Assembly (NCBI GenBank): GCA_947381415.1
Contig: CANCVB010000019.1
Location: forward strand, 1-52,539
Length of the DNA: 52,539 nucleotides
Source of the DNA: Burkholderiales bacterium
GTDB lineage: Bacteria; Pseudomonadota; Gammaproteobacteria; Burkholderiales; Burkholderiaceae_C
Direction of reading: 5' to 3'
In this document: in pieces, positions 10,305 through 22,304 of the stretch
How positions within the stretch are numbered: position 1 is the first letter of the stretch
Layout: every line of letters begins with the position of its first letter
Program-made: the position numbers and the translations under genes
The notes under the pieces: generated by a model
What the model was told of the DNA's origin: nothing
The model's database searches: none
What the model saw: only the letters and a program-made list of their open reading frames with translations

Positions 10305-10652
10305 TCAAGAGATGCCCAACAAAGCTCTGATTTTGGCTCTCACATCACGCATGACGGCATCAGGGGCTTGGTCTTTTTTAATGGCTTTGCGCACTTTCCA
10401 GTCAAGAGACTTCACTTGGTCAGACAGCACCACCCCCTCTACGCCGTTCATCGTGAGTTGAACTTCAAAGGGATGCTTTTTCACCTTGGTTGACAAGGGG
10501 CAGCACACCATCAACTGGGCTTTGCTGTTGTAAATAGCGGGGCTCAACACCAATGCTGGACGATGTCCTGCTTGTTCGTGGCCTGCTTGCGGGTCAAACT
10601 GCAACCAGACGATGTCACCCGCTTCTGGCACATAAGCGCGCCGGGTGGCCAT
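10305..10652 (-). CDS. mazF: MazF/PemK-type mRNA interferase toxin
   Basis: The 115-residue protein matches the MazF/PemK/ChpB fold: GDIVWLQFDPQAGHEQAGHRPALVLSP near the N-terminus carries the conserved Gly-Asp and the Arg-Pro-Ala segment, followed by VCCPLSTKVK and LSDQVKSLDW. Family members cleave mRNA at short sequences. The ATG at 10652 overlaps the mazE stop codon as TGATG, tighter than the in-frame TTG one codon before it, so toxin translation is coupled to the antitoxin. The class assignment is firm; the cleavage specificity is unknown. Confidence 0.93.
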   Translation of the reverse strand: MATRRAYVPEAGDIVWLQFDPQAGHEQAGHRPALVLSPAIYNSKAQLMVCCPLSTKVKKHPFEVQLTMNGVEGVVLSDQVKSLDWKVRKAIKKDQAPDAVMRDVRAKIRALLGIS

Positions 10653-10894
10653 CAAAGCACCTCTTGACCAACAGGTTTTCCAAATGAAACTTCACCGTGT
10701 CGATTTTTGGCAGTCATCCCCGCCACCAAGTCGTCAAGTTTGTATTCCAGCTTTTCGCAAGGCTCGATGATGATGCGGCCTTTTCCCGCTTTGATGGTCA
10801 CACGTTGTTCCAAATCAAAGTTGGCCAACTTCATCGTGGCGGCACTGAGTCTGAGGGCGGGGCTATTGCCCCATTTGCGAATCACGGTTTCCAT
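10652..10894 (-). CDS. mazE: MazE-type antitoxin
   Basis: The 80-residue protein has the AbrB/SpoVT swapped-hairpin start METVIRKWGNSPALRLS, typical of MazE and PemI, which bind operator DNA; its acidic or flexible C-terminus would wrap around the toxin. It precedes mazF with an overlapping stop/start. A GGAG ribosome binding site lies about 7 bp before the ATG, and two direct repeats about 14-35 bp upstream (10909-10928) are likely the autoregulatory site. Confidence 0.92.
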   Translation of the reverse strand: METVIRKWGNSPALRLSAATMKLANFDLEQRVTIKAGKGRIIIEPCEKLEYKLDDLVAGMTAKNRHGEVSFGKPVGQEVL

Positions 10895-12668: not shown

Positions 12669-13228
12669 GACTTCGTGGCGCGTTGCGCGGTTTTGCGCGG
12701 CTTGGTTGGCGTGCCAGACTTGGGCGTTGCGCGGGTTTTGGCAGCCGCTGCTTTGGTGCTGGCAGGTTTCACGCTGGCTGCGACAGGGCTGTGCTGTTGC
12801 ATCTCTTGCAGGGTTTTGGCTGCAATGCTTTGGAATTGATTGCTGATCGCACCCCACCACTGCATGGGGTCCACCACCGGTGGCGCTGTCTTGTCAGCGG
12901 GGCTGGCTTGCCCGGTCTTCGCCTTTCCCGTCATGGCCGAAGCCACATCGGCCATGCCCACGTTCATGCCTTGCAGGGTTTCCAAGGTCATGCGTTGCAC
13001 CTCTAAGGCCTGAATCGTGGCGCTTAAAGCTTTGGCGTTTTGGTCTAACCAAAACTGCACCGACTTCAGTTCTTGAATGCGCTTTTCCAATTCCTTGGGG
13101 TCCAGCGTGGGCGTGACCCACTGCGCGGCTTGCGGCATGCCAGCAGGTCCACCGGCGGCAGCAAACTGTTTTAAAAAATCAAAGCCAGGCAAGAGATGGT
13201 CGAAATTGAACGGAGGTGAACTGGCCAT
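12665..13228 (-). CDS. phaM: PhaM-type polyhydroxyalkanoate granule protein
   Basis: The 187-residue protein starts with a short PFNFDHLLPGFDFLKQF segment and a helical middle that includes LEKRIQELKSVQFWLDQNAKAL. It ends in a Lys/Ala/Pro/Thr-rich basic tail (from about 150) resembling histone H1-like tails. In Cupriavidus necator PhaM binds PHB synthase and the nucleoid, and distributes granules at division. The match is by layout and the conserved N-terminal motif. It sits 10 bp downstream of exbD and just before the alpha/beta hydrolase. No phaC is in the window. Confidence 0.75.
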   Translation of the reverse strand: MASSPPFNFDHLLPGFDFLKQFAAAGGPAGMPQAAQWVTPTLDPKELEKRIQELKSVQFWLDQNAKALSATIQALEVQRMTLETLQGMNVGMADVASAMTGKAKTGQASPADKTAPPVVDPMQWWGAISNQFQSIAAKTLQEMQQHSPVAASVKPASTKAAAAKTRATPKSGTPTKPRKTAQRATKS

Positions 13229-13238
13229 GGTGGTTCCT

Positions 13239-13652
13239 TCAAGGTGAGGTGCGTTCAGTGATAAAGCCTATTTGGGTCATACCCGCGCGTTGCGCTGCCG
13301 CCATCGCTTGCGCCACACGCTCATAGCGTACCGCGCGGTCGCCACGGATATGCAAAGGTGACTGCGGTTTCTTTTGCGCGGCTTCTTGCAACAGGCTTTG
13401 CAACTTGGCGTCATCTACCGCAGCGTCGTTCCAAAAATACCTGCCCTCGGCATCCACTGTCAAACGGATGGTTTGTGGCTTGGCATCTTGCGGTTGGTTG
13501 GTGGCGCGGGGCAATTCGATATTCACCGCATGCTTCATGACAGGGATGGTGATGATGAAGATGATGAGCAAGACCAGCATGACATCCACCAAGGGCGTCA
13601 TATTGATTTCGTTCATGACCTCGTCGCTGTCGTCTTGCGTGCCAAATGCCAT
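13239..13652 (-). CDS. exbD: ExbD/TolR-type biopolymer transport protein
   Basis: The 137-residue protein has one N-terminal membrane helix preceded by NEINMTPLVDVMLVLLIIF, with the proton-carrying Asp of the ExbD/TolR family (D25), and a periplasmic domain. With ExbB it uses the proton gradient to energise TonB. It follows exbB with 3 bp between them in a tonB-exbB-exbD set directly downstream of a PCu(A)C gene and a TonB-dependent receptor, so it most likely powers the copper receptors of this region, although it could serve others too. Confidence 0.92.
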   Translation of the reverse strand: MAFGTQDDSDEVMNEINMTPLVDVMLVLLIIFIITIPVMKHAVNIELPRATNQPQDAKPQTIRLTVDAEGRYFWNDAAVDDAKLQSLLQEAAQKKPQSPLHIRGDRAVRYERVAQAMAAAQRAGMTQIGFITERTSP

Positions 13653-13655
13653 GGT

Positions 13656-14345
13656 TTACTCCTGGGCTTTCACACGCGAACCGGTCATCAACAAGGCATG
13701 CAAATCATGGGCAAAGCGGTTCATGCGAGAGATCACCGCCTTGTTGCCGCGCACCAAGGCGTTGTAGCCCAGCACCGCAGGAATGGCCACGGCCAAACCC
13801 AATGCCGTCATGATCAGCGCCTCGCCAATCGGGCCCGCCACTTTGTCGATGGTAGCTTGGCCCGCCATGCCAATTTGCATGAGCGCGTGGTAGATGCCCC
13901 AGACCGTGCCAAACAAGCCGACAAACGGCGCGGTCGAGCCCACCGAGGCCAACACGGCCATGCCCGATTGCAGTTGCGCGGTAGCGTCGTCAATCGCATT
14001 TTGCAAACTGCGCGTCACCCAGTCACTGGTGTCGAGTTCTTTCAGCAACTCGGGTTGGTTGCTGCTGTTTTTCAAATGCGCCAAAGCCTCCTGGCCGCGC
14101 AGGGCCAGTGCCCTGAAGGGGTTGTTCTCTTCGTTGCCCAATGCCTGCAGACCCCCTGCGACATTGGGGCTGTGCCAAAACGCCTCGATGCGCGCGGCCT
14201 GACTGCGTGCGCCCAGCAAATTGAGGGACTTGACCATGATGACCAACCATGAAGCCAAAGACATGGCCAACAGCAAAATCGCCACAAAGCGGGTGACAGC
14301 GTCGCCCTCGGTCCATAAATTGATGAGTCCAAATTCGTTGTTCAT
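13656..14345 (-). CDS. exbB: ExbB/TolQ-type motor protein
   Basis: The 229-residue protein shows the MotA/TolQ/ExbB channel layout: one helix near the N-terminus (about 15-37), then a long cytoplasmic loop, then two helices around GSTAPFVGLFGTVWGIYHAL and GEALIMTALGLAVAIPAVLGYN. It forms the pentameric proton channel around an ExbD dimer. It lies between tonB (9 bp) and exbD (3 bp) on the minus strand. Confidence 0.94.
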   Translation of the reverse strand: MNNEFGLINLWTEGDAVTRFVAILLLAMSLASWLVIMVKSLNLLGARSQAARIEAFWHSPNVAGGLQALGNEENNPFRALALRGQEALAHLKNSSNQPELLKELDTSDWVTRSLQNAIDDATAQLQSGMAVLASVGSTAPFVGLFGTVWGIYHALMQIGMAGQATIDKVAGPIGEALIMTALGLAVAIPAVLGYNALVRGNKAVISRMNRFAHDLHALLMTGSRVKAQE

Positions 14346-14354
14346 GTCTGCTCT

Positions 14355-15038
14355 TTATTCCAAAGTGAATTGAATGGGCACTTGGTACCACATGGCCTCT
14401 GCCACACCGCCGCGCTTGCCTGGCACATAGCGCCAGCGCATCACCACTTCCAACGCTGATTTGTCCAAACGCTCAAAACCACTCGAGGTCTGCAACTCGG
14501 CTTTTTGGGGTTGCCCATCTTCGCCGATCAACACCTTCAACACCACCCGTCCCTGCTCACCCAAGCGCTTGCTCATGCGCGGGTAATCGGGGGGAGGATT
14601 GTGCAGGTAATCGGCTTTGGACGACGGTAACTCCACTTTGGGTGGGGCCACAGGTGCAGGAGGGGCTGGTGGTGGCGCGGGCGGTGGTGGTGCTGGTGGC
14701 GCGGCTTGCACCGCAGGTGCCGTGGGTGCAGCGGTGGGCGCACTCAACACCGCAGGGGGCTCAGGGCTGGCCACCGGCAGTGCAGGCGTTAACACCGGTT
14801 GCAGGATTTTGGGCGGCGGTGTGAGTGGCACAGGCTTGAGGGGTTCGGGCTTGGGCGGCTCAACGGGTTTGGGGAGGTCAGGCGGTTTGGGTGGTGGTGG
14901 TTCAGACTGGCTGATGACCATGACAGGCACCACCACCTCCACCATTCGCTGCAGCAAGCCTTGGTGCAAAGCCCACAGCCCCGCAAGATGGAACACCACC
15001 ACGCTGGCCACGATGACGGGGGTGCGGGAAAATTTCAA
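14355..15038 (-). CDS. tonB: TonB energy-transducing protein
   Basis: The 227-residue protein has an N-terminal membrane anchor (about 8-28), a Pro-rich periplasmic spacer (about 45-140, PPPPKPP and APPAPPPPAPPP runs) and a C-terminal TonB domain containing DYPRMSKRLGEQGRVVLKV. It links ExbB-ExbD to TonB-dependent outer-membrane receptors by pairing with their TonB box. Its ATG overlaps the stop codon of the PCu(A)C gene as ATGA, so it is translationally coupled to a copper gene. This is the main reason to think it is dedicated to copper uptake. Confidence 0.95.
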   Translation of the reverse strand: MKFSRTPVIVASVVVFHLAGLWALHQGLLQRMVEVVVPVMVISQSEPPPPKPPDLPKPVEPPKPEPLKPVPLTPPPKILQPVLTPALPVASPEPPAVLSAPTAAPTAPAVQAAPPAPPPPAPPPAPPAPVAPPKVELPSSKADYLHNPPPDYPRMSKRLGEQGRVVLKVLIGEDGQPQKAELQTSSGFERLDKSALEVVMRWRYVPGKRGGVAEAMWYQVPIQFTLE

Positions 15039-15535
15039 TGCTTGTGTTCTTCAGGCTTATTGGCGTCAGCAGGTGTCTGAACCCAAACTTCCACTTCAAC
15101 TTGACCGGCTTTTTTGAAAGTGAGCCCTACTGGAAATTTATCGCCTTCTTTAAGAGGTTTTTTCAAACCCATCAACATCAAGTGATAACCGTTGGGATTG
15201 CCTTTGGCAATGGAAACCTCACCACCTACCGGAATATCAATACCAGTCAAAGAACGCATTTTCATGACGTCACCGTCCATTTTCATCTCATGGATTTCAA
15301 CTCGATCTGCCACTTGGGTTGTCGCAGACAGCAATTGATCCAAAACATTGCCCGCGTTTTTAATGCTCTTTATGTAAACAACCCCATTTTTGCCCCCTGC
15401 CATTGAAGGTGTTGAATAAGGGTGCTTGATAGAAATATCACCTACTTCGAACCCATGCGCAGACAGGCCGGGGGACATAAAGATCATTGTCATTGAAATA
15501 GTGGCATAGAAAATTCTTTGTATCCAATGTTTCAT
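15035..15535 (-). CDS. Periplasmic copper chaperone, PCu(A)C family
   Basis: The 166-residue protein has a signal peptide (residues 1 to about 26, ending SAHG) and a cupredoxin-like domain. The Cu(I) ligand set of PCu(A)C proteins is present as H82, M93, H118 and M120; the spacing between the second and third ligand is 24 residues, slightly longer than the commonly quoted 21. The C-terminal tail EEHKH adds possible ligands. Such proteins deliver copper to cytochrome oxidase assembly (CuA or CuB). It is downstream of the OprC-like receptor and overlaps tonB, a context that fits a periplasmic acceptor for imported copper. Confidence 0.9.
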   Translation of the reverse strand: MKHWIQRIFYATISMTMIFMSPGLSAHGFEVGDISIKHPYSTPSMAGGKNGVVYIKSIKNAGNVLDQLLSATTQVADRVEIHEMKMDGDVMKMRSLTGIDIPVGGEVSIAKGNPNGYHLMLMGLKKPLKEGDKFPVGLTFKKAGQVEVEVWVQTPADANKPEEHKH

Positions 15536-15577
15536 TTTTTTCCTTCAGTTAAGTTTTCAAGCAGCTTCGATAGTGAG

Positions 15578-15591
15578 ATTGACTGGTCAAT
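15578..15591. promoter_or_regulatory. 14-bp dyad upstream of the PCu(A)C gene
   Basis: ATTGAC and GTCAAT form a perfect inverted repeat around a 2-bp centre, in the middle of the 90-bp gap between the OprC-like receptor gene and the PCu(A)C gene. It could be an operator or a small hairpin. No good sigma-70 promoter was seen with it, and it does not match the CueR or CsoR site types I know. Confidence 0.3.
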
Positions 15592-15625
15592 TGTTGGAGA
15601 AAGATTTCATGGTGAAAGAGATGGG

Positions 15626-17803
15626 TTAAAAACTCACGGTCATGCCAACATTGACTGAACGTCCCATGGCACGCGTTGGATTTAATTTATTGAACCCCGC
15701 ATAGGAATACTCTAGCCCCCCTAAAGGTAAGTTGTATTGCTTGTTCAACAAATTATCAACCCCTGCGTCCAAGCGCACAGTATTGGATACTTTGTAATTT
15801 GTGCGGTAGTTCGCAACCGAATAGCCACCTGTCCTTTTTTCCGCCCTGACTGTGTTCAAGTCAGTCTTAGCACTCACCAAAACAGCTTCTATAGTATGAG
15901 ACCATGTCCCATTGATGTGTTCTAAAGCCAAACGTGCGTTCAAAGGCATGATGTTGTAAAGATTATCTCCGCTGGTGGATTTTCCACGGGTGTAACTTAA
16001 ATTAATGTGGCCGACCACATTGCCATTGAAGTGAGCGATAAGCTTATTGGCCGACACATCAAATCCATACAAGTAGGCATCTTGATTCTCAAAAGTCAAA
16101 GCCTGACCGATTCCCATGCCGGCAAGAATTGCATCACTGTCCACTGCAGCATTGATGTAGTTTTTAACGTAGGTGTAAAAAGGCGAGATTTTCATCTGCC
16201 AATTGTTGTGATCGGCATCGTGCCAATCTGCACTGACTTTAAAACTGTAGGCTACTTCTGGCTTTAAGTTGATGTTACCGACATAAGAGTTCAAATCGCC
16301 AAACCAATTGTTCATGAGGCCCGCCATCATGTTTTCGTGAGACCACGTGTAACGCTCATGCAAATTAGGCGACCGTGTTTTTCTGGAAAAACCAAAATCA
16401 TATGTTTCGGTTGAGCTCTCAACATACCTTGCGGATGCAGTAATATCAAGATTCAAATCCTTGCGGGAGTGATCCATAGCATTGAATGCATTGGCATTGG
16501 TTTCATAACAACTGCCTCCGCAAATTCCAAATGGATCACCGGAGTAATACCCCTGCACATAGCCTGTATTCATTCTCACTTGCTCAATTCGGACTCCGAA
16601 TTGAGTGGACCACTTTTCATTCACTTGTGTATCCAATTCACCAAATACAGCTAAGCGTTCTCTTTTGCCTCCATTGATATTCCAGAATGTGTCTGGTCCC
16701 ATACCCATCATGGGCAAGTCTCCAGGCCACCAATCATCCAAGGTGTAACGATGAAACTCATGCCCAAATCGTGCAATCTGTGTTTCGTTCATCGGTAGTG
16801 TTCCCAGGAATGAATAACCCAGATCAACAGTTGACGTTTCCATCGGCATTGCAGATGCAGTCGGGTTGTACCCTGCTCCATACGTACTTTTTTGCTTTTC
16901 ATCAAACACGTCCATCTTGTGGCGAACATGCTGACGGAATACTCTGGTTTCCAAACTACCCCATTCAAATACGCCAAGGTAACCAGCGTTGATTGACAAA
17001 CTCTTGTTGGAAGTCATGTCCATAGACTGGTTGGGAAACCCTTGGTAAGGAATGTCTTGCCAACCGATAGCCATGGTGTACAGATCAGCGCCCGATTTAC
17101 TGGCCAGATTGACTTGGTTATTTCTGACTTTATAGGCGCTCGCAAGTACCGCTTGGCCATTGGCATCTTTGTAGCTCTTGGATTCAACAGTATTTCCTGT
17201 GTACCCAATGCTGAATTGCTCTGCGGCCTTTGTCAAGCGAACACTGCCGCCGTTGACATCGCCATTGCTGCGATAAAAAAGAGAGACATCGCCTGAAGAT
17301 TTTAAGCCTTCACCTGAATTTGCAAAAGTGGGTGGCAAAGAGCGCACTGCAATTGCGCCGCCAATGCTGTCACCGCCTTGGCTTACCGGAACGATTCCCG
17401 CAAATACATTGATGGAGCCCAAAGCTGCAGGGTCGATATAAGACAAAGCTGGGTTCATGTGATTGGGACAAGCTGCCGTGATTGACATGCCATCAACAGT
17501 GATCTTTAAACGGTCATCTGCCAACCCGTTGATAACTGGCAAACTTGACACCCCCCCTCCTGTGTACAAGCTCAAGCCAGGAATCCCATCTAACAAAGAT
17601 GCCGTGTCATTGGTTCCAAATCGACGTGCATTTAATTCCTCGCCTTTCAACGACTTGCCAAAATATGGAAACTCACTCCTGCCAATGATCGTAACGGTTG
17701 AAAGCTCTGCTTCATTTTTTAAAGTTTGTGCATTGACTGTATTTGTAGAAGCAACTAACAAACTGGCAAAGATACAAGCTGAAGCGATAAGGGATTTTTT
17801 CAT
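15626..17803 (-). CDS. oprC: TonB-dependent copper receptor, OprC/NosA type
   Basis: The 725-residue outer-membrane receptor has a signal peptide (to about residue 25), a plug domain and a beta-barrel ending in the Phe-terminated strand SVNVGMTVSF. The copper site described for P. aeruginosa OprC is recognisable: CxxxM as C112-P-N-H-M116 in the plug and HxM as H295-K-M297 in the barrel. It starts after a hairpin (17836-17854) and a 19-base leader shared with the second receptor gene. It is more AT-rich than the flanking metabolic genes. PCu(A)C and tonB-exbB-exbD lie downstream. Confidence 0.9.
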   Translation of the reverse strand: MKKSLIASACIFASLLVASTNTVNAQTLKNEAELSTVTIIGRSEFPYFGKSLKGEELNARRFGTNDTASLLDGIPGLSLYTGGGVSSLPVINGLADDRLKITVDGMSITAACPNHMNPALSYIDPAALGSINVFAGIVPVSQGGDSIGGAIAVRSLPPTFANSGEGLKSSGDVSLFYRSNGDVNGGSVRLTKAAEQFSIGYTGNTVESKSYKDANGQAVLASAYKVRNNQVNLASKSGADLYTMAIGWQDIPYQGFPNQSMDMTSNKSLSINAGYLGVFEWGSLETRVFRQHVRHKMDVFDEKQKSTYGAGYNPTASAMPMETSTVDLGYSFLGTLPMNETQIARFGHEFHRYTLDDWWPGDLPMMGMGPDTFWNINGGKRERLAVFGELDTQVNEKWSTQFGVRIEQVRMNTGYVQGYYSGDPFGICGGSCYETNANAFNAMDHSRKDLNLDITASARYVESSTETYDFGFSRKTRSPNLHERYTWSHENMMAGLMNNWFGDLNSYVGNINLKPEVAYSFKVSADWHDADHNNWQMKISPFYTYVKNYINAAVDSDAILAGMGIGQALTFENQDAYLYGFDVSANKLIAHFNGNVVGHINLSYTRGKSTSGDNLYNIMPLNARLALEHINGTWSHTIEAVLVSAKTDLNTVRAEKRTGGYSVANYRTNYKVSNTVRLDAGVDNLLNKQYNLPLGGLEYSYAGFNKLNPTRAMGRSVNVGMTVSF

Positions 17804-17805
17804 GG

Positions 17806-17824
17806 AAACCTCTGAAATTCAAAA
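17806..17824 (-). promoter_or_regulatory. Shared receptor leader with ribosome binding site (copy 1)
   Basis: These 19 bases, directly before the OprC-like receptor start, are identical to 20917-20935 before the second receptor. On the minus strand they include CAGAGGTTT, the Shine-Dalgarno element. The identity ends shortly upstream, where different hairpins follow. Confidence 0.6.
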
Positions 17825-17854
17825 CAACAAAAACACACCAAGCAGTGCTTAGTG
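17823..17854 (-). terminator. Terminator-like hairpin before the OprC-like receptor
   Basis: On the minus strand an 8-bp stem (17847-17854 paired with 17836-17843, one G-U pair) with a 3-nt loop is followed by a T-rich run, TGTTTTTGTTG. It lies between the DUF2946-type gene and the receptor start. It could end the upstream transcript or act as an attenuator. Confidence 0.55.
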
Positions 17855-17871
17855 CAAAAGTCAGATGAAAT

Positions 17872-18225
17872 TCAGAGTGCGGGCGGTCCGCGAGAAGGCA
17901 GCGGCGGCGCGGTGGCCGACGCAATATGCGCCGCTGCAACAGGCTGCAGGGCATGCGCAAGGGGAGAAACAGGCGCGGGCTGAAGGCGAACAGGCGCTGG
18001 TGGCAACACCACAGGCAAACACAAGGCACAGTCCATCGTGCCATGGCTGGGTGCGGCGCTGTCATTGCCATCCACATCCACGATTTTGAGAATGCCTGCG
18101 CTGGTACAAACCCACTCGGTGGCTTTGGGTGCCACCAAAGAAGACGCCATGGCCACACCCAAAGACAAAGCAAACCACACCAGCACGAAGCGGGTGAGGT
18201 GGCGCAGTTGTCTAAAGGCTTGCAT
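17872..18225 (-). CDS. DUF2946-type exported protein, copy A
   Basis: The 117-residue protein starts with a basic segment and a hydrophobic helix (about residues 12-30), then carries C40, the pair C67/C70 in DCALC, and a Pro/Ala-rich C-terminus. The layout fits the DUF2946 group often seen near copper genes; Cys and His residues (SHGTMDCALC) suggest metal binding, which is inference. It is almost identical to the gene at 20980-21333 (two residue differences). It begins 19 bp after the 48-residue membrane peptide and is followed by a terminator-like hairpin before the receptor gene. No clear ribosome binding site is seen, so coupling to the upstream peptide is possible. Confidence 0.8.
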   Translation of the reverse strand: MQAFRQLRHLTRFVLVWFALSLGVAMASSLVAPKATEWVCTSAGILKIVDVDGNDSAAPSHGTMDCALCLPVVLPPAPVRLQPAPVSPLAHALQPVAAAHIASATAPPLPSRGPPAL

Positions 18226-18227
18226 GG
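17880..18227. repeat. 348-bp duplicated segment, copy A
   Basis: It matches 20988-21335 at a constant offset of 3108 bp, with six substitutions and no gaps by direct reading (342/348). It covers nearly all of the DUF2946-type gene and ends two bases upstream of its ATG. Confidence 0.95.
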
Positions 18228-18244
18228 CTTATTGAACTTATCGT

Positions 18245-18391
18245 TCAGGTGCTTGAGTACAAAGGCATCGATTGGTCTATATTCTTGGACCCTTGAACAT
18301 AACCCATCGCCCAAGCGCACCAAACGGTGATTGCGACGATACAGGGAACTAGGCCACGTAAGAAGCCTCTGCGTGAAAAGTACTTTGACAT
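18245..18391 (-). CDS. 48-residue single-span membrane peptide, unknown
   Basis: An ATG at 18391 opens a 48-codon frame starting MSKYFSRRGFLRGLVPCIVA. The basic N-terminus (RR at 7-8, R12) is followed by one hydrophobic helix (about 13-31) with two Cys (17 and 25) and a short polar tail. A GTAGGGA element about 6-8 bp upstream is a good ribosome binding site. It fills the gap between the copper-uptake-associated gene (18 bp) and the DUF2946-type gene (19 bp), so it looks like a member of the operon. The RRGFL start faintly resembles a Tat signal, but the length argues for a membrane peptide. No family is recognised. Confidence 0.6.
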   Translation of the reverse strand: MSKYFSRRGFLRGLVPCIVAITVWCAWAMGYVQGSKNIDQSMPLYSST

Positions 18392-18409
18392 ATGAATTCC
18401 CTACAAAAA

Positions 18410-18913
18410 TCAGTGATGCTTTTTATGACCACCAGCGTCATGGTGGCCCGTTGTCTCAACCTTCACAACTTCGCCAAACAAGGACAGTTGCTTTAGCTGA
18501 GCTTTAGTCAACTTAGCTTCTGCATCCATCACTTTCTTTGACAACAGATCTGCCGACTTGGCTTGCATGCCGGCGAGTTTGAGAGCCTGTGCTTGGCGCA
18601 AACCGTCGCCACCACACACCGTGACTGTCCATTGCCCGTTGACCAGATGCAACAAAGCCCGACCACCCTTGTCTTTTTGAAACCAGCCGGCGACGGCATA
18701 GTCGCCCTCAACCACCACAGGATGAACCGTCAAGGCTGCGTCAGGGCGGTCAAATTGGGACTTCAGTACACGCACAATCTGCTGCTCAGGCTTAGCCATG
18801 TTGTGGGCACCCCCTGCGCTTGGCGAAGAAGGGTCATTTGCGTGTGCACAGTGCATTGCCAAGGCCACTACGCCAAAACCTAGGTACCTAGCCATTGAAA
18901 AATGAAATGTCAT
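18410..18913 (-). CDS. Copper-uptake-associated exported protein
   Basis: The 167-residue protein has a signal peptide (ending CAHAND, about residue 26), a central domain with VEGDYAVAGWFQKDKGGRALL and one conserved Cys in VTVCGGDGLR, and a His-rich tail (GHHDAGGHKKHH). I recognise it as the kind of protein annotated as associated with a copper uptake system in Comamonadaceae, beside a TonB-dependent receptor; its biochemical role is not established. The His tail suggests periplasmic metal handling. It begins 11 bp after the receptor gene at 18925-20913, so the two are cotranscribed. Confidence 0.75.
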   Translation of the reverse strand: MTFHFSMARYLGFGVVALAMHCAHANDPSSPSAGGAHNMAKPEQQIVRVLKSQFDRPDAALTVHPVVVEGDYAVAGWFQKDKGGRALLHLVNGQWTVTVCGGDGLRQAQALKLAGMQAKSADLLSKKVMDAEAKLTKAQLKQLSLFGEVVKVETTGHHDAGGHKKHH

Positions 18914-18924
18914 GATGTTCTCGC

Positions 18925-20913
18925 TTAAAAATGGGTGATCAAACCAACCCGAAAGTTACGGCCTGGCATGGTGTAGCCAGCGTTGTAGACGTAGGTTTTG
19001 TCAAACAAGTTGTTGAGAGAGGCGTAAACCTCGGCGTTTTTTCCTGCCCCTTGTATCGGTCGTGCGATGCGCATATTGGCAATCGTGAAGCCAGACACAT
19101 ATTCAGGGGTGTAGGTGCCGCGCTCCTGCGTCATCGAATACATGGAAGATTGGGTTTGGGTATCGAGCGCCAATTTATAAGCGCCTAGTTGGCCATTTAA
19201 TCCCAGCGACATCACGACTGAAGGTGCGTAGGGAAGAGAGCTTAGCGATGAATCTAGGAATGTGAGGCCAACAAACATTTTCCACGTGGGTGAAAAGCTA
19301 TGCTGAATTGAGATTTCTGCGCCGCTGATTTGGTAATCGGGGTATACGCTGCTAGACCATGATGAAGTTTGAAAGCTGTTGCTCCATGTATAGCGCTTGC
19401 TGATTTCGTCTTGAAAGACACTCATATCAACACGGGTGTTTGGATTGACTTCCCACTTCATGCCAATTTCGCTGTGCTGATCTTCGGTGGGTGAAAGGGT
19501 ATTCCAGCCATTGCTGCCATCAGCCAAGAACATGAAAGGAATAGCCCTTGTCAGCGCATAAGTTTCTGCGCCAGGGTACAGAAGGGCCTTGGCATAGTTG
19601 GCATAAACCGTCAGATCTTGACCAATCAATGACAAGCCTGCATGGGGGGATGATTGGGCATCGTAATGGTTGCTGTCATACGTTCTGACACCTGCTGAAG
19701 GCTGCAAAACCCAATTCTCAGAAATATTGAATTTTTGATTAACGCCGATATACGTGGACATGATTTTGAATGAGGGAATCGTGGCTGAACCCTGAACAAC
19801 GGAGGGAAACCCTCCTAGCGCACCCCCAACATAGGGACCCGACATGTTGCCACTGATGTCATCTTGGTCCAAGCCAGCAATGATTTGTGCGTTTGTCCAA
19901 GGTGTGAATTCTTCACGCCAGCGAAAACCTGTCATTTTGAAAGCGGTATTGAATGTGCCGTAGGAGGCATCCTCCACCAAATCATTATTTCCCTCGGAAT
20001 TGAAAACCTTGAAATCGCCCGTCCACCCTTCATGCTGATGGCTCAAGCTGGCAGACACCATATTGACCGATGAATTGTTTCTGGCAACGCCGTTCGAATA
20101 AATCGTATTGTTGGTACCGCTTATTGCTGTACTGGTCCAGTTGGTGGTGGCGTATCGACTGTCACCTGGGTCACCCACTTTGTTATTCACTGACAAGAGC
20201 ATGGCACTGGCAGACCAAGCGCTGTTGATTTTGATGCCTACGCGTGCCAAGGCGTTTTGTAAATTACTGTCTGAGTTGGATCTGTCGCCATTTGAATCAA
20301 TATAGCCAGCAGCAAACCCATAATCGATATCTTCTTTTTTACCTAGAACATGAGCTTGCAAAGTCTTCGTCGAAAAGGACCCAATAGACATATTGGCCCC
20401 ACCGGTAACCCCATCAACTGAGGCTCGCTGGCTGGTCAAGTTAACAGCGCCAAAGTTGTTTCCGCTGACCTGAGGTTGTGCGCTTTTATAGATGTCCAGT
20501 GACTGCACCGCGTTAAGGGGCAGCAAGTCCATCAAAGGATGGTTCCAAATACCCATGTAAAGCGGCACACCATCAAGATAAGTTTTGATTTCACTGCCGG
20601 GGCGACTCGCTCCCATGCCGCGAATATAAATAGTGCCTCCTTGGTTTCCACTGTAAGAACCCACCTCGTTGTAGCGGGAAATTTGAATGCCGGGCGTCAT
20701 GCGCAGGGATGAAGCCAAATCTAAAGCGCCCAAGTCTTGTAGTTGTGTTCTGGACACAGAGGTTAAATAGCCTGAAAAGCCATCCAATGTGTTGGACTCA
20801 ATGACGGGAGAGGCCGTCACGACGACGTCTGGGAGTGATGCTGTCTGGGCTAAGCTGGATTGTGAATAGGAACAAGCAATGGCAACTGCCATGGCAATTT
20901 GGGCTCTACGCAT
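18925..20913 (-). CDS. TonB-dependent receptor, probable copper/metal uptake
   Basis: The 662-residue outer-membrane protein has a signal peptide (to about residue 23, SLAQ), a TonB-box-like LPDVVVTASP segment, a plug domain (with IYIRGMGASRPG and the LDGVPLYMG loop) and a beta-barrel ending in NFRVGLITHF. The substrate is not readable from motifs. The copper assignment rests on its partner, the His-tailed protein 11 bp downstream, and on the neighbouring OprC-like receptor. It is AT-rich compared with the flanking genes. Its leader shares 19 bases with the other receptor and is preceded by a terminator-like hairpin at 20943-20963. Confidence 0.82.
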   Translation of the reverse strand: MRRAQIAMAVAIACSYSQSSLAQTASLPDVVVTASPVIESNTLDGFSGYLTSVSRTQLQDLGALDLASSLRMTPGIQISRYNEVGSYSGNQGGTIYIRGMGASRPGSEIKTYLDGVPLYMGIWNHPLMDLLPLNAVQSLDIYKSAQPQVSGNNFGAVNLTSQRASVDGVTGGANMSIGSFSTKTLQAHVLGKKEDIDYGFAAGYIDSNGDRSNSDSNLQNALARVGIKINSAWSASAMLLSVNNKVGDPGDSRYATTNWTSTAISGTNNTIYSNGVARNNSSVNMVSASLSHQHEGWTGDFKVFNSEGNNDLVEDASYGTFNTAFKMTGFRWREEFTPWTNAQIIAGLDQDDISGNMSGPYVGGALGGFPSVVQGSATIPSFKIMSTYIGVNQKFNISENWVLQPSAGVRTYDSNHYDAQSSPHAGLSLIGQDLTVYANYAKALLYPGAETYALTRAIPFMFLADGSNGWNTLSPTEDQHSEIGMKWEVNPNTRVDMSVFQDEISKRYTWSNSFQTSSWSSSVYPDYQISGAEISIQHSFSPTWKMFVGLTFLDSSLSSLPYAPSVVMSLGLNGQLGAYKLALDTQTQSSMYSMTQERGTYTPEYVSGFTIANMRIARPIQGAGKNAEVYASLNNLFDKTYVYNAGYTMPGRNFRVGLITHF

Positions 20914-20916
20914 AAA

Positions 20917-20935
20917 AAACCTCTGAAATTCAAAA
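20917..20935 (-). promoter_or_regulatory. Shared receptor leader with ribosome binding site (copy 2)
   Basis: Identical to 17806-17824 over 19 bases, carrying the CAGAGGTTT ribosome binding site of the second receptor. It lies just before the ATG. Confidence 0.6.
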
Positions 20936-20938
20936 TTG

Positions 20939-20963
20939 AAAACTGCCTAAATGTTCTAGGCAG
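20939..20963 (-). terminator. Terminator-like hairpin before the second receptor
   Basis: On the minus strand a perfect 7-bp stem CTGCCTA/TAGGCAG (20957-20963 with 20943-20949) and a 7-nt loop are followed by TTTTC. It sits between the DUF2946-type copy B and the receptor gene, at the same relative place as the unrelated hairpin at 17836-17854. Confidence 0.6.
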
Positions 20964-20979
20964 GGAAAATTTGAAAAGT

Positions 20980-21333
20980 TCAGAGGACGGGCGGGCCGCG
21001 AGAAGGCAGCGGCGGCGCGGCGGCCGACGCAATATGCGCCGCTGCAACAGGCTGCAGGGCATGCGCAAGGGGAGAAACAGGCGCGGGCTGAAGGCGAACA
21101 GGCGCCGGTGGCAACACCACGGGCAAACACAAGGCACAGTCCATCGTGCCATGGCTGGGTGCGGCGCTGTCATTGCCATCCACATCCACGATTTTGAGAA
21201 TGCCTGCGCTGGTACAGACCCACTCGGTGGCTTTGGGTGCCACCAAAGAAGACGCCATGGCCACACCCAAAGACAAAGCAAACCACACCAGCACGAAGCG
21301 GGTGAGGTGGCGCAGTTGTCTGAAGGCTTGCAT
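20980..21333 (-). CDS. DUF2946-type exported protein, copy B
   Basis: This near-identical copy of the gene at 17872-18225 has 117 residues and differs at two positions near the C-terminus (Ala for Thr in SAAAPP, Val for Ala in PPVL); the other DNA differences inside the gene are silent. It shares the N-terminal helix, C40 and the DCALC pair. It starts 26 bp after the enoyl-CoA hydratase-family gene, so it may be transcribed from upstream; an open TTG at 21351 is less likely because the duplicated block begins at the ATG. A terminator-like hairpin follows, then the second receptor. Confidence 0.8.
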   Translation of the reverse strand: MQAFRQLRHLTRFVLVWFALSLGVAMASSLVAPKATEWVCTSAGILKIVDVDGNDSAAPSHGTMDCALCLPVVLPPAPVRLQPAPVSPLAHALQPVAAAHIASAAAPPLPSRGPPVL

Positions 21334-21335
21334 GG
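20988..21335. repeat. 348-bp duplicated segment, copy B
   Basis: Partner of 17880-18227. Outside the block the two loci diverge at once upstream (membrane peptide versus enoyl-CoA hydratase-family gene) and partly downstream, where 52-55 bases differ before the shared 19-base leader. Confidence 0.95.
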
Positions 21336-21359
21336 GTGGAATTGTAAGCAACAGGCGGT

Positions 21360-22166
21360 TCAGCCGAATTGCGGGGGGCGCTTGGCTTTGAGCGAGGCCA
21401 CGCCTTCACGCACATCGGGTCCGCCAAAGCCCATGAACTCCAAAGCCAAGGAGGTATCAAACGCAGGGCCGGCTTGGCGCAGCCAGTTGTTCAAGGCGTA
21501 CTTGGTCCAACGAATGGCACTTTGACTGCCGTTGGCCAGCTTGTCGGCCACCTCATAGGCTTTGTTCAACAGTTCACCGTCTTCCACACACAAAGACACC
21601 AGCCCAATGCGCTCGGCCTCTTCGCCACTGAGCGGTTCGCACAGCATGAGGTAGTACTTGGCCTTGGCCATGCTGCACAACAATGGCCAAATGATGGCGG
21701 CGTGGTCACCCGCGGCGACACCCAGACGGGTGTGGCCATCGACAATCTTGGCGCTCTTGGCAGCTATCGAAATATCGGCCAGCAAGCCCGCCACCAAACC
21801 CGCACCTACCGCTGGGCCATGCATGGCGCTGACGATGGGCTTATCGCAATTGATGACGTTGTAGACCAGGTCGCGCGCCTCTTTCCACACGCGGGTGCGC
21901 ACCTCGAAGTCGTCGACCATGTCTTGCACCAGGTTCAGATCGCCGCCGCCCGAAAACCCCATGCCCTCGCCGCGCAACACCGCGCAACGCACGCTGTCGT
22001 CGCGCCCGACATCGCGCCAAATCTCACACAAGTCTTCGTGGCCGTCGTGACCGGCTGTGGGCAATTTGCCATTCAGGGCTTTCATCTGAATATCAAGCAC
22101 ACTTTGCTGGGGGCCTCGGCGGGTAATCGACAAGGTGGTGTAGGCGCTGTAATCAATGGCTTTCAT
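21360..22166 (-). CDS. Enoyl-CoA hydratase/isomerase family protein
   Basis: The 268-residue crotonase-fold protein has the oxyanion-hole regions [14 protein letters not shown] (about 65-78) and [23 protein letters not shown] (about 115-137). The substrate cannot be assigned: the second region lacks the Glu typical of classical hydratases, so isomerase, hydrolase or another crotonase reaction is possible. The ATG at 22166 (MKAIDYSAY) was chosen over an open start further upstream because the family begins here. DUF2946-type copy B follows 26 bp downstream on the same strand, and a DksA-like gene is divergent upstream. Confidence 0.85.
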
Positions 22167-22304
22167 CTTGGGCTCTTGGGTCAGGTCAGAAAACCAAGAT
22201 TGTGCCTGCTGGCCAGTGCGCAATTTGCGCTTTGTTGACCGAGGTCAATGCGAGGCGCCCAAGCCGAGCGCAACATGGCCAGCGTGGACTTCACAGGAGG
22301 CTTG

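Follow-up and report, generated by a model that had tools for sequence, protein, structure and literature searches.

Near-identical DUF2946 leaders ahead of two TonB-dependent receptors in a Burkholderiales bacterium, and their predicted pairing with the receptors' Shine-Dalgarno sequences

DUF2946 leaders that precede copper-related genes are known from Bordetella and Rhodobacter. In the CruR-CrtA(BfrG)-CrpH operon of Bordetella pertussis, a DUF2946 leader with a CXXC motif and a C-terminal RxPP motif is situated directly ahead of a TonB-dependent receptor, among genes for copper import. PMC9426467 reports that expression depends on the RAPP motif of CruR, that copper control depends on its CXXC, and that the leader acts via Rho. 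PMC12992588 describes arrest of CruR in vitro with two Pro codons in the P and A sites and finds that, of motifs of this kind, RGPP arrests most stably; the receptor CrtA and CrpH are described in PMC12914433 and PMC13038864. In the CutF-CutO system of Rhodobacter capsulatus, as presented in PMC9973294, a stem-loop behind the DUF2946 leader hides the Shine-Dalgarno (SD) sequence of cutO. The same paper describes SecM, VemP and MifM, whose stalling opens a stem-loop so that the downstream ribosome-binding site becomes free; these sense protein export, not copper. Here we describe two CruR-like leaders on the contig CANCVB010000019.1 (assembly GCA_947381415.1) of a Burkholderiales bacterium, the 52,539 nt of which are called the window below. 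The last codons of each leader are predicted to pair with the SD of the receptor gene behind it.

The two leaders belong to a minus-strand block (13239-21333) with the transcription order leader 1, receptor TBDT-A, His-tailed protein, 48-aa peptide, leader 2, receptor TBDT-B, PCu(A)C, tonB, exbB and exbD. All of the components that a preliminary description of this DNA had placed in one block, namely the receptors, the His-tailed protein, PCu(A)C, two DUF2946 proteins, a membrane peptide and tonB-exbB-exbD, were located (Table 1). The block consists of two modules, each headed by a DUF2946 gene. Beyond that description, the DUF2946 genes show 98% DNA identity, each is situated directly before a receptor, and both encode CXXC and RGPP.

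The leaders differ at 8 of 354 bases, in seven codons, five of them synonymously, and both exceed the Pfam cut-off for PF11162 (23.7 bits). Their identity is high from two bases upstream of the ATG onwards and declines at the stop. The list of open reading frames starts leader 1 at TTG 21351; ATG 21333 is preferred, because the identity to the other copy begins two bases before it. CXXC (CALC, residues 66-69 in leader 1) is followed by RGPP (112-115), two further residues and the stop. The spacing of the motifs is 42 residues in both, and among 121 leaders (the window's two included) it is 42 in 97, 43 in 21, 41 in 2 and 44 in 1; the published spacing is 45, constant within one or two residues. 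The locus differs from the CruR operon in having RGPP instead of RAPP, a spacing of 42 and leader-receptor gaps of 66 and 68 nt instead of 162 nt, as well as an SD-pairing tail and two leaders in one block, and PepSY_TM had no match among the ten block proteins. Both leaders are directly upstream of a TonB-dependent receptor on the same strand; leader 2, however, also comes after module 1 on that strand. No clear SD precedes the leader starts at 21333 and 18225, which fits the low translation reported for CruR. Because DUF2946 leaders are known from Bordetella and Rhodobacter, the two genes are best read as arrest leaders; judged from their sequences, they are likely to be of the CruR type and not transport parts.

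The feature that is new here is that the leader's last codons and stop are predicted to pair with the receptor SD inside the presumed footprint of the stalled ribosome. In gap A, CCUCUGAA at the leader end pairs with UUCAGAGG at the TBDT-A SD over 8 bp, and in gap B, CUCUGAA pairs with UUCAGAG at the TBDT-B SD over 7 bp. Gap A folds at -27.2 kcal/mol (z -5.5; equalled or bettered by 0 of 200 shuffles) and gap B at -25.9 kcal/mol (z -3.5; by 2 of 200). The stretches between the arms are unlike in sequence in the two gaps, but each contains an inner hairpin. A stem-loop over the downstream SD, as in CutF, is present in both gaps by prediction and statistics, the difference from CutF being that the anti-SD arm consists of the leader's own last codons and stop. 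Rfam at gathering thresholds gave no match in 13000-22300. Counting from the first base of the P site, a ribosome covers about 16 nt. When P114 occupies that site, the 5' arms lie at P+9..P+16 (gap A) and P+10..P+16 (gap B), where a ribosome stalled at RGPP would cover them.

The leader tails tend to match their own SD better than those of other junctions. In 38 non-redundant junctions, each leader tail was paired with its own SD or with permuted partners: the energy was -9.58 kcal/mol for the own SD and -7.40 for permuted ones (Z -6.6; Z -5.7 when the permutation was binned by G+C content). Neither an upstream leader segment from the same junctions (Z +1.3) nor 27 ordinary junctions (Z +1.2) showed a preference for the own partner. 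The mean SD pairing into the footprint was 0.68 with real and 0.44 with swapped tails (Wilcoxon 2.6e-7), reaching at least 0.7 in 26/38 junctions; the longest helix was at least 7 bp, likewise in 26/38, against a permutation mean of 13.0 and a maximum of 22 (5000 permutations). A genus hold-out agreed with this signal (n=9, Z -2.6, p 0.0057). The inner parts of the leader gaps had a mean z of -1.96 against shuffles, with 29 of 38 below -1, compared with -0.41 in ordinary gaps (n=27). At one locus (L200), CUCUGAC/GUCAGAG stands for the window's CUCUGAA/UUCAGAG, one pair being altered on both sides.

These results suggest, with a probability that we put at roughly 60%, that the leaders are CruR-type gates of their own receptors, closed by copper through SD occlusion as in CutF, perhaps together with Rho. 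At low copper, a stall at RGPP would hold the leader's ribosome over the last codons of the leader; with the anti-SD arm under the ribosome, the receptor SD would stay free. Copper bound to the nascent CXXC would relieve the stall, the ribosome would depart at the stop codon, and the freed tail could then pair with the SD and shut translation, probably followed by Rho termination. Copper import would in this way be switched off when copper is plentiful, module 1 serving TBDT-A and the His-tailed protein, and module 2 the OprC-like TBDT-B, PCu(A)C and TonB-ExbBD. The near-identity of the leaders, their motifs, the position of the arms in the presumed footprint and the own-partner complementarity are matters of sequence and calculation; stalling, an effect of copper with its sign, a role for Rho and the transport of copper by TBDT-A are inferred. 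CruR has been reported to work via Rho and CutF via a shielded SD, with opposite copper responses; the leaders of the window would join CruR-type sensing to a CutF-type readout. An SD-pairing tail would also explain why the residues after RGPP are variable and yet nearly constant in number (2-4 in 112/121 leaders).

Several results weigh against this reading. Within the window, the pairing into the footprint is 0.72 in gap A and only 0.57 in gap B, random tails did as well as the real one in 1/12 swaps for gap A and 3/12 for gap B, and masking the stalled footprint raised the mean unpaired fraction of the SD from 0.00 to 0.45 in gap A, thus freeing it only partly, and from 0.15 to 0.26 in gap B, where little was freed. 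Across the relatives, six of the 38 junctions pair below 0.3 (L004, L006, L066, L104, L136, L143), of which L004 and L006 are close relatives, and the chosen helix extends beyond P+17 in 14/38. Only 3/9 hold-out junctions reach 0.7, and L199, L204 and L215 show no pairing; loci of the order outside the family give a weak signal (n=15, Z -1.9, p 0.034); the whole gap of L200 folds at a z of only -1.5. When all 103 non-redundant junctions are taken, the upstream control is also low (-7.40; matched -8.50), and base composition therefore contributes there. Finally, both leaders are richer in C than in G over their 3' half (C 0.40-0.46, G 0.22-0.29 in 78-nt windows), like the rut region of Bordetella, and Rho may act as well; this composition fits Rho control, which could suffice alone.

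If it did, the RGPP stall would keep Rho off as in Bordetella CruR and the SD helix would be incidental. The shared family and motifs point in this direction, as do the C-rich, G-poor 3' halves, the type of stretch that pointed to a rut site in PMC9426467. We regard Rho-only attenuation as rather unlikely, since the gaps measure 66 and 68 nt and not 162, and own-partner complementarity across relatives is unexpected for an incidental helix; the two readouts can coexist. The word 'Shine' is absent from the main text of the CruR paper (PMC9426467), and an SD readout for CruR leaders was not found in the open-licence main text in PMC, while subscription papers and supplements may hold one.

The sign of the response could also be that of CutF, copper strengthening the stall so that the receptors are made at high copper, for in CutF, too, a stem-loop shielding the next SD comes after a DUF2946 leader (PMC9973294). 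However, CutF governs a detoxifying oxidase switched on by copper and carries CxxxC, according to that paper, whereas the genes here are import genes behind leaders with CXXC, and this sign seems very improbable. Slightly less credit still is due to intrinsic attenuation, in which the inner hairpins and their T-runs would end transcription ahead of each receptor. The region has 11 terminator-like sites, among which these two hairpins hold the largest numbers of pairs (10 and 9), but 11 is no excess over the 12.6 found in shuffles. Such hairpins are about equally enriched in leader gaps (0.24 vs 0.07 shuffled) and ordinary gaps (0.19 vs 0.04), hence not specific to the former, and the ribosome footprint at RGPP stops short of the hairpin. 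That the DUF2946 proteins are themselves transport or chaperone parts, as the preliminary description had it, we hardly credit: a CXXC can bind copper and the N-terminus resembles a signal peptide by eye, but PMC9426467 reports the Bordetella protein absent from proteomics and without complementation from another locus, and the two copies here precede unrelated receptors.

TBDT-B resembles OprC of Pseudomonas aeruginosa in fold, OprC chains heading both fold searches (28 and 13 rows). Its C112xxxM116 and H295xM297, proposed earlier to match the copper ligands of OprC, do align with C143, M147, H323 and M325 of OprC as given in PMC8610252, and all four are invariant across 28 aligned sequences (the window's and 27 chosen from 120 listed homologues). 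Its identity to OprC is about 21%, and it scores 127.4 bits against TIGR01778 (OprC), well below the cut-off of 472.45. TBDT-A is unrelated to it. BtuB was the best match in the second-look fold search, with many receptors close behind, and PqqU came first in Foldseek; against PDB sequences the single sequence had no match and the profile placed YncD and PqqU first. TBDT-A has a single Cys, at residue 14. CrtA receptors form a sequence cluster and mostly have a PepSY_TM partner. Over 269 columns, TBDT-A and the PepSY-linked receptor in L004 are 23% alike; no row named CrtA is in the second-look fold list, which excludes nothing. Relatives of TBDT-A follow leaders at L050/L079, L122 and L187/L213, and those of TBDT-B at L069 and L092. 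Copper would be the cargo of TBDT-A because of its leader, the neighbouring copper-uptake-associated protein and these relatives. That protein, the His-tailed one, has a relative directly behind a leader in L200, and no match in the PDB at E 0.1. The rule that a leader tail complements the next SD would help to locate copper-controlled genes, including receptors such as TBDT-A.

The distribution of these genes suggests exchange. Leaders occur in 35/61 genomes of the genus (only 26 of the 61 have a completeness of 90% or more and a contamination of 5% or less), and full-length TBDT-A and TBDT-B were found only in this one, a 2.5-Mb assembly that is 99.9% complete; the other matches to the receptors in the genus are weak, save a 54% stretch of TBDT-A in G651. 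The G+C content is 45% for TBDT-B, 43% for PCu(A)C and 49% for TBDT-A, whereas the leaders have 62-63% and tonB has 62%. The close relatives L003 (enoyl-CoA hydratase 93%, leader 85%, TonB 93%) and L004 (leader 85%, TonB 93%, ExbB 89%, ExbD 95%) keep the frame with different receptors in between. Exchange of cargo behind a retained leader would be the simplest account. L003 and L004 come from metagenome bins whose titles name Bordetella parapertussis and Rickettsia typhi; their genes match the genus of the window (TonB 93%), and the titles look wrong. We lean slightly towards a wider proposal, namely that the last codons of the Burkholderiaceae-type CruR peptide double as the anti-SD strand, so that leader and tail would form a portable copper-off cassette, with unrelated receptors swapped in and out behind it, which is duplicated here and would set one copper threshold for two of them. 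If so, a single ribosome position would read copper via the nascent chain and open or close the next gene. A second leader pair within one stretch, 86% alike over 118 residues and with different cargo, is found in L092 (11041-17109, minus strand). In L206 (832-1395), the leader is followed by a short protein that matches a Crp-type helix-turn-helix only weakly (23.4 bits, cut-off 27), possibly a copper-gated regulator; L205, L207, L208 and L215 show starts of similar appearance.

Table 1. Genes of the block and predicted RNA elements, in window coordinates
Feature	Position	Strand	Basis or remark
exbD	13239-13652	-	PF02472, 111 bits; under curated cut-offs of TolR and ExbD models; name from context
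exbB	13656-14345	-	PF01618, 118 bits; under curated cut-offs of TolQ and ExbB models; name from context
tonB	14355-15038	-	PF03544, 83.8 bits; TTG start
PCu(A)C periplasmic copper chaperone	15035-15535	-	PF04314, 112.7 bits
TBDT-B, 725 aa, OprC-like receptor with C112/M116/H295/M297	15626-17803	-	Domain match, fold searches, alignment
Gap B 3' arm UUCAGAG, contains TBDT-B SD	17810..17816	-	
Gap B inner hairpin, then TTTTTGTTGT	17834..17856	-	
Gap B 5' arm (anti-SD) CUCUGAA	17871..17877	-	
Leader 2, DUF2946/CruR-like arrest leader (likely)	17872-18225	-	PF11162, 27.7 bits
48-aa small protein	18245-18391	-	Conserved; one membrane stretch by eye
His-tailed 'copper uptake system-associated protein' (NF033672)	18410-18913	-	123.4 bits, cut-off 50
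TBDT-A, 662 aa, TonB-dependent receptor, BtuB/PqqU-like, without OprC ligand motif	18925-20913	-	
Gap A 3' arm UUCAGAGG, contains TBDT-A SD	20920..20927	-	
Gap A inner hairpin, then TTTT	20943..20963	-	
Gap A 5' arm (anti-SD) CCUCUGAA	20979..20986	-	Last base of V116, L117, stop, +1
Leader 1, DUF2946/CruR-like arrest leader (likely), 117 aa	20980-21333	-	PF11162, 27.1 bits

The tonB start and the PCu(A)C stop share 4 nt (TTGA), an overlap that had been noticed before. The genome has 4 Plug, 3 TonB_C and 4 ExbD/TolR matches, the local TonB being its best TonB_C match, and the TonB set of the block is not the only one. The local TonB-ExbBD may serve these receptors, though not necessarily them alone; the interpretation in the preliminary description, with a self-contained block that has its own TonB motor, is, overall, partly supported.

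The 48-aa protein has 10 homologues (73-94% identity), 6 of them likewise 48 aa long and all named only 'hypothetical protein'; a weaker match (47%) is situated behind a leader in L207. At the DNA level it resembles the receptor N-termini of L006 (score 39, at most 32 in shuffles) and, more faintly, those of L004 (26, at most 36 in shuffles). A reading as the fossil of a lost receptor's signal peptide was dropped, because the ten homologues, six of equal length, show a conserved small protein. In viral contigs, 27 stretches fit a pattern for it and none was confirmed.

Upstream of the block (21334-21359), a same-strand gene resembling enoyl-CoA hydratase by eye ends 26 nt before leader 1, leaving hardly any space for a promoter; the same order of hydratase-like gene and leader is found in L003, L005 and L012. 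Elsewhere in the window, a pair of small open reading frames at 10305-10894 resembles a MazEF-type toxin-antitoxin by eye.

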